This document shows positions 20,671 through 26,652 of a DNA stretch of 64,000 nt, one piece after another; position 1 is the first letter of the stretch, and every line of letters begins with the position of its first letter. Below the pieces are notes generated by a model. It searched no databases, was not told where the DNA came from, and saw nothing but the letters and a program-made list of their open reading frames with translations. The stretch lies in NCBI GenBank assembly GCA_017469845.1, contig JAFUFP010000056.1, positions 1 through 64,000 on the forward strand. The letters are read 5' to 3'. Position numbers and translations under genes: made by a program. This DNA comes from Bacteroidales bacterium (GTDB lineage Bacteria > Bacteroidota > Bacteroidia > Bacteroidales > UBA932).

Positions 20671-21339
20671 TCAGTCCAAAATAACAATAGCCCTGGAAGG
20701 ATGGTTGAAGGTCAACTTCACGGTATCTTCCGATGCCCTGTTCAGTGTCGCCTTCCACCAGTTGTCAAACACGACATCGTCAGTCGGCCATACAAGACCC
20801 TCAGATTTGATCTTGAGGCTGTTGTCGGGAGTCAGGATAGAGATTCTTCTACCTTTGCCGACCGCAAGTTCACAACTGTCCGAAATCGCGAAAATCGTAC
20901 TGTAGTCAGAGACCATGTCCATCTCGATTCCGGAAAGGTCGAACATCCTCCGGTATTCCATAAGCAGGGAGATGTTTCCGATGGTGTGGTCCTCGCGTTT
21001 TCCTCCTGCACCCAGGATATGGATGGTGTCAACTTCCGGATAATTGCTCAAGATATACCTGACGGCCTTGGTCTGGTCGTTGTCATCCTGTTCCTCGATA
21101 TGGACGAATTTTACGGCGTCTCCATATTTTTTCCTCATCGGAACGCCGATGGAGTCAAAGTCTCCTATGACCGCATCGGGAAGCCTGTTCCGGCCCGGGA
21201 ATATCTTGTCCATCGCCTTGAGGTAAATTCTGAAGGCGCTGTCGCAACAAACTATGATGTCCGCCGTCCCGATTAGGTACCTCGGATACGGTTTCCTGGG
21301 GAAATCCCCGGCTCCTATTATTGCAGTGATCTTTCCCAT
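20671..21339 (-). CDS. thiN: Thiamine diphosphokinase
   Basis: Transfers pyrophosphate from ATP to thiamine to make thiamine diphosphate in the cytosol. The protein has 222 aa, the usual size. N-terminal GAGDFPR, then PDAVIGDFDSIG with the acidic metal-binding pair, then DDNDQTKAVRYIL and GAGGKREDHTIGNI are the family signatures. The C-terminal beta-sandwich domain follows (ISILTPDNSLKIKSEGLVWP). It starts 20 nt after the LptF/G-Fmt gene, in the alaS transcription unit. Confidence 0.9.
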   Translation of the reverse strand: MGKITAIIGAGDFPRKPYPRYLIGTADIIVCCDSAFRIYLKAMDKIFPGRNRLPDAVIGDFDSIGVPMRKKYGDAVKFVHIEEQDDNDQTKAVRYILSNYPEVDTIHILGAGGKREDHTIGNISLLMEYRRMFDLSGIEMDMVSDYSTIFAISDSCELAVGKGRRISILTPDNSLKIKSEGLVWPTDDVVFDNWWKATLNRASEDTVKLTFNHPSRAIVILD

Positions 21340-21359: not shown

Positions 21360-23813
21360 TTATTCTTCCGAGGATATTCTCGTCTTCATGATTTCCGCAT
21401 GAGAAGTTCCTGGAGTGGCATGGAAGGATTCCGGATCACGGAAACCTGCCAGGAAAGCTTTCACTTCCATCCTCTTCTTTCCGGAGAGCTGGATGTCTTC
21501 CAGAAGGAGGGCTCCGTCGGCGGTCGTGATGGCGAAGTATGACTTCCCGTCGGAAAGGACCGTACCCGGAGTCTTGCCTTCGGGGGCGTCCTTCATTATG
21601 CTTGTGCGGAATATCTTCAGTTGAACCTCGTCTCCATCCTCTTTCTTTATAGTGGCGAAAGCGGTGGGATAAGGACTGAGTCCACGGATGAGGTTATGGA
21701 TTTCCTCGGTGGGGGAGTTCCAGTCAATGTGGCAAAGCTCCCTTGTGAGCTTGGGCGCGGGCTTGAGCACCTCCGAACCTTGGATGAAGCTTCTCTGGAC
21801 CCTCGTTTCGATGTTCTTCTCCAGAATTCCCTTGACGGTCTGCACCACCAAATCGGCGCCGACGGGCATCAGTGCGTCGTGCAGGTCACCGGCTGAATCT
21901 TCAGGTCCTATCATCACATCCTGGCGGAGCATGATGCCTCCGGTGTCGATGTCCTTGTCGATCATGAAGGTGGTCACACCCGAGCGGCGTTCTCCGTTGA
22001 TGACGGCCCAGTTTATAGGAGCCGCACCGCGGTATTGGGGAAGAAGTGCCGCATGAAGGTTGAATGTTCCCAGAGGGGGCATCTTCCAAACGACCTCAGG
22101 AAGCATCCTGAAGGCGACGACAACGAAAAGATCAGCCTTTAGGGCGGCGAGCTGCTCAAGGAACTCGGGATCTTTGAGTTTTATAGGTTGGAGTACAGGT
22201 ATGCCATGTTCGACAGCATACTTCTTGACAGGACTCTCGTTTACCTTGAGTCCACGTCCGCTGGGCTTGTCGGCCACCGTTACGACTCCGACTATATTGT
22301 ATCCTTCTTTGACGAGGGCGTCCAGAGGCGCGACCGCGAACTCCGGAGTTCCCATGTAAACTATTCTTTCTTTGCGGAAGATGCTCATTATCTTGGATTT
22401 TAGTGTTCTCCACCACTGGCCGAAGTTCTCGGTCTTGATGACGGCGGAGTCATTAATCGCCTTCCACGAAAGATAGACTCCTATCGGGAAGAGAACGAAG
22501 GTTGAAATGAATACGCCGGCAGCCGCTTTGACGGCTCCGTCGTTGGCGAGTTTTATGCCGGTTATGTCAACGACCCAATAAAGAACGAAGAACAGCACGG
22601 CGACTATCACATTCGTTCCCATTCCTCCCTTCTTGTTCACGAATGCGCCCAAAGGAGCTCCGATGAGGAACATTATGATGCAGGCCAAAGCCTGGGCTAT
22701 TTTCTTGAGGATCTCGACGGTGCTTCTCCTGATTGTCCAGTCATACTGATAGCGGTCAGTGTCGTAATTCTTGAGCCTTGAGGAAAGATCCTCGGAGGTC
22801 GTTATGGCATTCTGGAGAGCCTGCTGTTCCATGCTGATGTCAGGCCATGCTCTGTATTTGGCGATGTCATATGGGGTAGTACCTCCGAAATGAGCCGACG
22901 TGTCGATCTGGTTGTAGAACTCGAAAGTGCGGGACCGGAAGAACATCTTGTACTGCTGGATCCTTGTGGAATCCAGATTGTGGCTCGCCGAATCGACATC
23001 ATGCACAAGGTGCTTGGTGTCCTTCGCCCTTACCTGGTCACCGTACTTGTCTCCCTCGGATTTCTGGAAAGCGTAGTTCTTCAGGGGAATCACCATCTCC
23101 TGCTTGGAGAAGTCGATCTTGCTCAGCTGCAGGGTGGTGTCCTTGTACTTCATGGTGTTCGTCTCCTGATAGTTGATGCCGCTGTAGAGCTGGAACGTGA
23201 GGTAGTCCTTGCTCTTTGACATCTGCATCATGGCGGAGTCCGCCACCGTTATCGAGGTGTTGCCCTTGTTGTCGGTATGGTCATACACCATGACTCCCTT
23301 CATCATCCCGGTTTTCTTGTCCCTTTCATCTATCTTCAGGACATATCCTTCGATGCCGTCGTAGAAGGTGCCTGTCGGAATGTTTATCTCGTTCTTTGTG
23401 CTTCCGATATCGTCCCTCATCGTGAAAATCTTGTTGTATGCGATGGGGACCAGGTTGTTGGCGGCGAAGTAAGCCCCGACGAAAATGAACAGCGAACAGA
23501 TGAATATAGGGGTCATCACCCTCAGAAGGGAAGTTCCCGACGCTTTGATGGCTATGAGTTCGTTGTTCTCGGCCATCTGTCCGATCGTCATCACCGAAGC
23601 GAGAAGCGTGGCGAGCGGGAGGGAGATGGGCAGCATTGTGGCGCTGCCCCAGAGCATGAATTCCAGAATGATCTGGAGGCTGAGGCCTTTGCCGACGAGT
23701 TCGTCGATATACAGCCAAAGGAATTGCATCATCAGGATGAAAATGACGACGGCAAGGATACCGAAGAACGGTCCTATGAACGACTTCAATATGAACTTGT
23801 CGAGTTTTTTCAT
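21360..23813 (-). CDS. LptF/LptG family permease fused in frame to methionyl-tRNA formyltransferase
   Basis: One open frame of 817 aa covers two proteins that are normally separate. Residues 1 to about 470 are an LptF/LptG permease of the LPS export ABC system, with N-terminal helices, a periplasmic domain and three C-terminal helices ending in VYLSWKAINDSAV. Residues about 476-817 are methionyl-tRNA formyltransferase, starting MSIFRKERIVYMGTPEF. It keeps the formyl-transfer motif NLHAALLPQYRGAAP (Asn, His) and the Asp in MIDKDIDTGG, plus a full C-terminal tRNA-binding domain. The junction has no stop. An internal ATG at 22388 could also give free Fmt. Either a true fusion, two overlapping products, or a sequence error that removed a stop; see findings. 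Confidence 0.85.
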   Translation of the reverse strand: MKKLDKFILKSFIGPFFGILAVVIFILMMQFLWLYIDELVGKGLSLQIILEFMLWGSATMLPISLPLATLLASVMTIGQMAENNELIAIKASGTSLLRVMTPIFICSLFIFVGAYFAANNLVPIAYNKIFTMRDDIGSTKNEINIPTGTFYDGIEGYVLKIDERDKKTGMMKGVMVYDHTDNKGNTSITVADSAMMQMSKSKDYLTFQLYSGINYQETNTMKYKDTTLQLSKIDFSKQEMVIPLKNYAFQKSEGDKYGDQVRAKDTKHLVHDVDSASHNLDSTRIQQYKMFFRSRTFEFYNQIDTSAHFGGTTPYDIAKYRAWPDISMEQQALQNAITTSEDLSSRLKNYDTDRYQYDWTIRRSTVEILKKIAQALACIIMFLIGAPLGAFVNKKGGMGTNVIVAVLFFVLYWVVDITGIKLANDGAVKAAAGVFISTFVLFPIGVYLSWKAINDSAVIKTENFGQWWRTLKSKIMSIFRKERIVYMGTPEFAVAPLDALVKEGYNIVGVVTVADKPSGRGLKVNESPVKKYAVEHGIPVLQPIKLKDPEFLEQLAALKADLFVVVAFRMLPEVVWKMPPLGTFNLHAALLPQYRGAAPINWAVINGERRSGVTTFMIDKDIDTGGIMLRQDVMIGPEDSAGDLHDALMPVGADLVVQTVKGILEKNIETRVQRSFIQGSEVLKPAPKLTRELCHIDWNSPTEEIHNLIRGLSPYPTAFATIKKEDGDEVQLKIFRTSIMKDAPEGKTPGTVLSDGKSYFAITTADGALLLEDIQLSGKKRMEVKAFLAGFRDPESFHATPGTSHAEIMKTRISSEE

Positions 23814-23856: not shown

Positions 23857-26472
23857 TTATGCCGTGGCGACTTCCACCAGCTTTTCAAGGGCGTCCTTGA
23901 GTCCCTGGATGTTCTTTCCGCCCGCGGTTGCGAGGCCGGGCTGACCGCCGCCTCCGCCCTGGATGAATTTGGCGGCATCGCGGATATCCTTTCCGGCGTT
24001 CTTTCCCTTGGCGACGAGGTCAGGGGAGTACATGAGAACGAGGTTCGGTTTCCCGTCGAACTCGAAAGCTGCGGCGAGAACGAAGTTGCTCATTTCCTTC
24101 TGGAGGATTGTGGCTCCGTTTCTCACCATCACGGGATCCATGGAGCTGTCCACCGTGACGACGTTGATTCCGTTGACGGGAGTGGCCTTTGCGACGAGTT
24201 CCTTGGCGAATGAAGCCGCCTTTTCAGCGAGGAAACCTTCGATTTCCTTCTTGAATGAAGCGTTGTCGGAAATCATCTTCTGGATGGCCGCTTTCAGGTC
24301 CGGAGCGTTGTTGAACATCGCCTTGGCGTTCTTAAGGGTATCCTGGAGCGAAAGAATCAGGTTCTCAGCCGCTTCACCGGTCACCGCCTCGATTCTTCTT
24401 ACACCGGCGGCAACGGCGCTTTCGGATACGATTTTGAAGTATCCGATGTTTCCGGTGGCGGATGTGTGTGTTCCTCCGCAAAGCTCCACTGAATCACCGA
24501 ACTTGACGACTCTCACCCTGTCACCGTATTTCTCACCGAAAAGGGCGATGGCTCCCATCGCGTTGGCTTCCTCCATGGTGGCGTCCCTCTTTTCCTGGAG
24601 GGGGCTGTTCTTTCTGATGAGGGAGTTGACGAGGCGCTCGGTTGAGGCCAATTCCTCATCGCTCATCTTCGAGAAATGCGAGAAGTCGAACCTGAAGTAG
24701 TCCGGTCCGACGAAGGATCCCTTCTGCTCGACATGGGTGCCGAGGATTTCCCTGAGGGCTTCGTCGAGAAGGTGGGTCGCGGTATGGTTGGCGGCGATCT
24801 TCTTTCTCCTTTCACCGTCTACTACGAGGGTGAATTCCCCTTCGCAATCGTTCGGAACGGATTCGGCGATATGGACGGTGAGGTTATTCTCCTTGACGGT
24901 ATTCAGGATGGCGATCTTCTGTCCGTCGGCGGCAACCACGTATCCGGTGTCACCGACCTGACCACCCATTTCGGCGTAGAAGGGGGTGCGGTCGAACACG
25001 AGCTGGATCATGGTGCGGTTCTTCTGCTTCACAGTGCGGTGCTTCAGAAGGGTGGCTCCCTGAACTTCGAGGGTGTCATAACCGAGGAACTCGGAATCCG
25101 TGGCGTCGCTGAATACGGTCCAGTCACCGAACTCGTTGGCTGTCGCGTTGCGGGCCCTTTCCTTCTGCTTGCCCAGTTCGACGTTGAATCCGTCCATGTC
25201 GATGGTGAGCCCGGCTTCCGTAGCGATGAGGGCCGTAAGGTCGATCGGGAATCCGTAGGTGTCATAGAGGACGAAGGCGTCGACTCCGGAGATGACACCG
25301 CTCGCCTTGGATTTCTTGATATATTCATCCAGAAGCTTGATACCCCTGTCGAGCGTGCGGAGGAAAGCCATTTCCTCTTCACGGATGACGGTTTCGATGA
25401 GTTTCTTCTGGGCTACGATTTCGGGATAGGCTTCTCCCATGTCAGCGGCGAGCTGGTCGACAAGGCGACACAGGAACGGCTCGTTGAATCCGAGGAAAGT
25501 GTATCCGTAACGGACCGCACGGCGGAGGATTCGTCTGATGACGTATCCGGCCTTGACGTTGGAAGGAAGCTGGCCGTCGGCGATTGAGAAAGCGATCGCC
25601 CTGATATGGTCGGCGATGACCCTCATTGCCACTTCAGTGTCGGCGCTTTCATGGTAACGGTGTCCCGAGAACTCCTCGACCTTGGAAATGAGCCCGCTGA
25701 AAACGTCGGTCTCGTAGTTGCTGGTCTTTCCCTGGAGAATCATGCAGAGGCGCTCGAAACCCATACCGGTGTCGATATTCTTGTTGGGAAGGAGTTCGAG
25801 ATGTCCGTCGGCCTTCCTGTTGTACTGCATGAAGACGAGGTTCCAGATCTCGATGACCTCGTCATTGTCGGTGTTCACGAGCGAAGCTCCGGGAACTTTG
25901 GCCCTTTCCTCATCGCTCCTGAGGTCAATGTGGATTTCGCTGCAGGGACCGCAGGGACCGGTGTCACCCATCTCCCAGAAATTGTCATGCTTGTTTCCCA
26001 GAAGGATGTGGTCGGCGGGAAGATGGCGGAGCCATGCCTCCCTGGCCTCCTCGTCGAGGGATGTACCGTCGCTTTCGTCACCTTCGAATACGGTGGCGTA
26101 GAGGATGGATTTGTCAATCTTGTATACTTCGGTGAGAAGTTCCCATGCCCAGTCGATGGCCTCGGACTTGAAATAGTCTCCGAAGCTCCAGTTTCCGAGC
26201 ATTTCGAACATGGTGTGATGTCTTCCGTCATGACCTACGGCTTCAAGGTCATTGTGCTTTCCGCTGACACGGAGGCACTTCTGGGAATCGGTAGCCCTTT
26301 TGAATTTGGGTGTGGTGTTCCCGAGGAAGATGTCCTTGAACTGGTTCATTCCGGCGTTGGTGAACATGAGGGTAGGGTCATTCTTTATGACCATGGGGGC
26401 CGAGGGAACTACTGTGTGTCCCTTTGAGGCGAAGAAGTCAAGATACTTCTGGCGTATTTCTTTTGATGTCAT
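23857..26472 (-). CDS. alaS: Alanyl-tRNA synthetase
   Basis: Attaches alanine to tRNA-Ala. The start at 26472 ([19 protein letters not shown]) gives 871 aa, the normal length; an upstream extension of 53 codons is unsupported. Class II catalytic domain at the N-terminus ([35 protein letters not shown]). The editing domain carries the [12 protein letters not shown] metal-site motif and [10 protein letters not shown]. The C-terminal oligomerisation domain ends in the glycine-rich [15 protein letters not shown]. First gene of the unit alaS, lptF/G-fmt, thiN, HTH-like gene. Confidence 0.96.
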
Positions 26473-26546
26473 CATCTGAGTGTTTTCACTTGGGCTTTGG
26501 CACAACATTTTCATGTCGGAAGAAGGCGCTATGCCGTAGCAAACCG

Positions 26547-26584
26547 CAAAATTACAACAAATTCTCCAAAAAAGGCTATATTTG
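26547..26584. promoter_or_regulatory. Divergent promoter -7 boxes between alaS and the M23 peptidase genes
   Basis: TAATTTTG on the minus strand (26554-26547) lies 75 nt from alaS. TATATTTG on the plus strand (26577-26584) lies 69 nt before the peptidase start. Both match TAnnTTTG; -33 elements are not clear. Confidence 0.45.
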
Positions 26585-26652
26585 CGGTCTCCCCTATATA
26601 ATATAAAGGGTCCGGCAGGCCGGGAAAACACGTCAAGGTGCGGAGGTATCGT

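Follow-up and report, generated by a model that had tools for sequence, protein, structure and literature searches.

The locus and the fusion gene

In the window, by which we mean the whole 64,000-nucleotide stretch of Bacteroidales DNA that was analyzed, one open frame on the minus strand encodes an LptF/LptG-family permease followed by methionyl-tRNA formyltransferase (Fmt). The features of the locus, in the direction of reading, are as follows.

23857..26631, minus strand: alaS (alanyl-tRNA synthetase), upstream neighbour; translation read by eye; the coordinates are those of the frame, within which the true start may lie
21360..23813, minus strand: lptF/G::fmt fusion gene, 817 codons plus stop in a single open frame
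22476..23813, minus strand: LptF/LptG-family permease part, residues 1–446 (PF03739, PDB sequence matches, AlphaFold2)
22371..22475, minus strand: linker, residues 447–481, net positive, with a predicted helix at 461–479
22386..22388, minus strand: in-frame internal ATG (Met476), position –8 relative to the Fmt core
21429..22370, minus strand: Fmt part, residues 482–795 (TIGR00460, PF00551, PF02911, Foldseek)
20671..21339, minus strand: thiamine pyrophosphokinase-like gene (thiN), downstream neighbour; translation read by eye

The fusion frame starts at an ATG and runs for 817 aa with zero internal stops, and the order along it is permease, basic linker helix and complete Fmt. Pfam places LptF_LptG at residues 7–451 (E 5.6e-71; 239.9 bits against a cut-off of 27.9; profile positions 2–353 of 353), Formyl_trans_N at residues 483–659 (5.3e-33) and Formyl_trans_C, full length, at residues 688–792 (2.9e-25). 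The initial annotation of this DNA had proposed a single-frame fusion of two full-length halves, and both parts of that proposal are borne out; the presence of two full-length domains in one open frame excludes chance. The AlphaFold2 model of the fusion protein has a mean pLDDT of 80 and a pTM of 0.47, and the linker helix at residues 461–479 is modelled at low pLDDT (about 50), so that the placement of the permease and Fmt halves relative to one another is uncertain.

The permease half

The permease half has a periplasmic domain flanked by two TM bundles, with the helices and strands of the AlphaFold2 model in the order expected for the family. Like the LptF/LptG permeases of the LptB2FG LPS exporter (PF03739), it is a complete permease domain, and its PDB sequence matches include both LptG and LptF; unlike them, it carries a translation-initiation enzyme on its C-terminus. 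We name it at the family level only, because it falls below both the LptF and the LptG equivalog cut-offs (TIGR04407, 159.1 bits against 230; TIGR04408, 114.4 bits against 240). A second LptF/LptG-family permease, unfused, is found in the window's genome (G000:C57:2353-3399). Proteins of the LptF/LptG family have both the N- and the C-terminus in the cytoplasm, which would put the Fmt half on the same side of the membrane as its substrates.

The Fmt half

The Fmt half scored 244.4 bits against the NCBIfam fmt equivalog TIGR00460, passing the cut-off of 201.5. In an alignment with E. coli Fmt (1FMT), the catalytic residues correspond to Asn585, His587 and Asp623, none of which varies across 56 fused homologues; the earlier statement that the catalytic Asn, His and Asp are kept is borne out. 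The C-terminal tRNA-binding domain (PF02911) is full length, the Fmt fold is well formed in the AlphaFold2 model with most blocks at pLDDT 85–93, and Foldseek comparison with solved Fmt structures gave TM values of about 0.87–0.91 when normalised by target. The predicted function of this half is the formylation of Met-tRNAfMet. It thus resembles stand-alone Fmt (TIGR00460; E. coli 1FMT/2FMT) in its full-length N- and C-terminal domains, its catalytic residues and its sequence (E 1.1e-59 to 1FMT), and differs in being the C-terminal half of a membrane protein that lacks a conserved start codon of its own for Fmt. Among proteins of the Cryptobacteroides clade (described below), the stretch at residues 701–790 (about 21444–21713, in the Fmt C-terminal domain) varies in length from 87 to 131 residues; outside it, Fmt length is almost unchanged in the clade.

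A formyltransferase of the Fmt superfamily also occurs in natural fusion, and tied to LPS chemistry, in ArnA (a bifunctional formyltransferase-dehydrogenase). In contrast to the window protein, ArnA is soluble, formylates a sugar nucleotide and has an oxidative decarboxylase as its fusion partner, and the window protein, which is above the Fmt cut-off, is far under that for ArnA (154.5 bits against 777). We therefore ruled out that the Fmt half is a sugar formyltransferase such as ArnA.

A profile search of the contigs of the window's genome found no second Formyl_trans_C match, making the fused Fmt the sole Fmt, and each of the near-complete fused genomes tested (21/21) likewise has a single match, always in the fused frame. 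These searches rule out a dispensable fused Fmt with a backup Fmt elsewhere. The window's genome also has two peptide deformylase genes (G000:C17:27835-28308 and G000:C7:27776-28210), which, like the presence of a sole Fmt, bear indirectly on the predicted formylation of Met-tRNAfMet.

Distribution of the fusion among relatives

Wherever both the permease half and the Fmt half could be located, a stop-to-stop frame scan classed the locus as fused or unfused. With duplicates included there were 187 such loci, 115 of them fused, 64 adjacent but separate and 8 with the two genes apart; with duplicates removed, the 150 remaining rows comprise 100 fused, 44 adjacent and 6 apart. At the junction, which the initial annotation had wanted compared in relatives, every classifiable congeneric genome in the sample has the fusion, at 57–69% identity (a few congeners with contig fragments only were not classifiable), and neither of the refuting outcomes, separate proteins only or a stop codon dividing the domains, occurred. 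The window's genome (G000) is 3.66 Mb, and the listed congeners are all smaller (1.4–3.4 Mb). One congener locus (L023:665-3150, in G025:C269) has the permease half split between residues about 222 and 271, leaving frames of 297 and 601 aa; this break probably reflects a pseudogene or an error of assembly.

The named records in the window's clade are 'Candidatus Cryptobacteroides' species. A fusion confined to the window or to its genus is ruled out, since several further genera are fused. We saw no fusion in the other sampled families of the order Bacteroidales, and none in 147 other Bacteroidota genomes, judged by frame length. Apparent fusions in G050 and G053 (from other families) and in G106, with frame values near 800, have stops between the halves or are separate genes. 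With 100 distinct fused loci of diverged sequence, spread over tens of independent assemblies that come from separate projects, an assembly or sequencing artefact is ruled out as practically inconceivable, the one point in its favour being that most of the genomes are MAGs. We found no published report of an lptF/G-fmt fusion in the open-access literature, and the membrane-tethered formylation enzyme that the fusion predicts appears to be undescribed so far.

Number of origins and the ancestral gene pair

We built trees from concatenated permease and Fmt sequences, with the linker omitted. Fused rows stand in four places in the tree of one Bacteroidales family, with unfused genera in between:

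C1: the window's genus plus g42 (the Cryptobacteroides clade)
C2: genera g28, g30, g40 and g41
C3 with C4: g31 (including Candidatus Coprenecus) plus one g27 genome
C5: a single MAG, G120, with unfused sister genomes

C5 is the weakest of these placements because it rests on one MAG. The fused or unfused state requires four changes on the tree, no unfused member was seen inside a fused clade, and constraining C1–C4 to one clade cost 67.6 log-likelihood units and was rejected (p-AU 0.0012).

The gene order alaS-lptF/G-fmt-thiN is kept in unfused relatives. alaS is in the flank of 64/66 C1 loci and 37/44 unfused loci, and thiN in that of 56/66 and 34/44, respectively; the presence of the same neighbours around fused and unfused forms indicates that the fusion took place in situ. 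In the 44 distinct unfused loci, the Fmt core starts anywhere from 16 nt ahead of the end of the lptF/G stop codon to 40 nt past it, and fmt frequently has its start codon within lptF/G. The predicted ancestor had lptF/G and fmt as two genes that overlapped or abutted. Genes with a short overlap are coupled in translation, and subunits of complexes are overrepresented among such pairs (PMC10666635); lptF/G and fmt were probably translationally coupled before they were fused. An indel or the loss of a stop would then join the two coupled genes. In four unfused loci (L038, L078, L167 and L168) the two genes already share a frame and are separated by a stop and a few codons, which makes these loci candidates for one-step fusion or readthrough. 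In two unfused loci of genus g46 (L090 and L091), the permease C-terminus extends about 110 residues past the usual tail and is followed by fmt.

Because the unfused outgroups already abut, mostly in different frames, repeated fusion is a simpler history than repeated fission, and abutting genes probably gave rise to the fusion on at least four occasions. The converse history, a single ancient fusion that was later undone by fission several times, draws on the fact that the tree by itself, and parsimony alone, cannot orient the changes as gains or losses, and that one gain with several losses is just slightly longer for C1–C4 than separate gains. However, with the unfused outgroups abutting in different frames, every fission would need to bring back a frame shift, a stop and a start; linker lengths differ from clade to clade; and a single clade of C1–C4 is rejected. 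We consider this history unlikely and favour several fusions. The initial annotation was partly supported overall; it had missed both the recurrence of the fusion in several clades and the ancestral overlapping or abutting pair.

The linker and the internal ATG

To the Fmt core, the linker measures 36 residues in 62 of 65 C1 proteins, 37 in two and 35 in one, and across the different fused clades linkers are unlike in sequence and range in length from 35 to 51. The linker has a pooled dN/dS of 0.16 (0.13 in C1); the values for Fmt and the permease C-terminus are 0.07 and 0.10, respectively. The linker is evolving as protein, under purifying selection, and synonymous conservation within it is not raised (pS 0.47–0.50 versus 0.53 in Fmt). 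The share of proteins whose linker helix beat shuffled sequences in amphipathicity at p<0.05 was 0.76 in C2, 0.17 in C1 and 0.18 in C3; we therefore rejected a strongly amphipathic helix as a general feature of the linker, since it is clear in C2 and weak in C1 and C3.

The in-frame ATG at 22388 is present, as the initial annotation had stated, and it had been put forward as a start from which Fmt could be released separately. One mRNA would then give two products, the full-length fusion and a free Fmt made from a start in the linker. In keeping with this, 38 of the 66 C1 genes have an ATG at the window's position, unfused relatives frequently start fmt at –4 to –10, and A is enriched at the synonymous sites that precede the ATG (0.45, versus 0.24 elsewhere), a composition that would fit an internal start in Bacteroidota. 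However, species without the internal ATG show the same synonymous A excess (0.32 versus 0.19), which leaves the codon evidence on internal initiation ambiguous, and the ATG has undergone 11 changes on the tree. Among the 100 fused genes, 44 lack an ATG in the last 20 codons ahead of the Fmt core, 22 lack any ATG, GTG or TTG there, and 7 have none of the three anywhere in the linker; the unraised synonymous conservation also argues against a second signal of this kind. A conserved internal start as a general mechanism is thus unsupported, with the ATG patchy in C1 and no ATG at all in that 20-codon stretch in 44 of the 100 genes. The proposal of a free Fmt is weakened although the ATG itself exists, and we judge two products from one mRNA to be unlikely. 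The ATG at 22388 is predicted to be dispensable and may be a relic of the ancestral, separate fmt start codon; a free second Fmt product is possible in the species that keep it.

A membrane-anchored Fmt as the predicted product

The fusion is real, selected and recurrent. We give a probability of about 0.68 to the reading that the gene makes one bifunctional, membrane-anchored protein that would supply the cell's Fmt and that was born of overlapping genes. The product would be an inner-membrane LPS-export permease subunit bearing the sole Fmt on its cytoplasmic C-terminus, joined by a basic helical linker of ~36 residues. The full-length protein would be a working Fmt at the cytoplasmic face of the membrane that diffuses with the transporter, and the fusion would fix the ratio of permease to Fmt. 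That the full-length protein matters follows from the sole fused Fmt, the selection on the linker and the unconserved internal start, taken together. Membrane tethering, which the initial annotation had already raised, follows from the anatomy of the protein and is the best reading of it; from sequence, we infer a single product, a membrane location and co-expression as the driver. Tethering need not be adaptive in itself, and the variety of linkers from clade to clade points to a co-expression device that is tolerated, more than to a machine for specific docking.

If Fmt were instead held at the LPS transporter or the inner membrane for a specific benefit, such as local fMet-tRNA for membrane-bound ribosomes or the linking of initiation to envelope growth, one might point to the recurrence of the fusion in four clades, to the lack of any unfused member seen inside them, and to the selection on linker sequence and length within clades. 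However, overlapping genes alone would also give repeated fusion, linkers differ between clades in both length (35–51) and sequence, and sister genera are still unfused. Such selected coupling seems to us improbable. The stronger claim that in this Bacteroidales family initiator-tRNA formylation is obligately bound to the membrane and held in stoichiometry with the LPS exporter, with the convergent origins (at least four) reflecting a coupling of initiation to the envelope beyond mere overlap, is distinctly doubtful. Proteolytic release, in which the fusion would be cut in the linker to give a permease and a soluble Fmt, would make use of an exposed, basic linker of low confidence in the AlphaFold2 model, and the differences between clades would be of little consequence if the linker were cut; the near-constant length in the Cryptobacteroides clade (62/65 at 36), the purifying selection and the lack of an evident cleavage motif common to the clades make it very unlikely.

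For a single membrane-anchored product, the consequences reach beyond this locus. Fmt is usually pictured as a soluble enzyme that makes fMet-tRNA for the whole cytoplasm. A large group of gut Bacteroidales would formylate initiator tRNA solely with the tail of an LPS-export membrane protein. A sole Fmt joined to a membrane transporter in a widespread gut lineage would mean either that formylation is workable from the membrane or that little of it is needed. The recurrent fusion of unrelated overlapping genes, together with selection on the linker, offers a natural test of the assumption that fusion implies coupling, which underlies 'Rosetta stone' function prediction. Annotation pipelines are likely to label such a gene either as a permease or as Fmt and to miss the other half.
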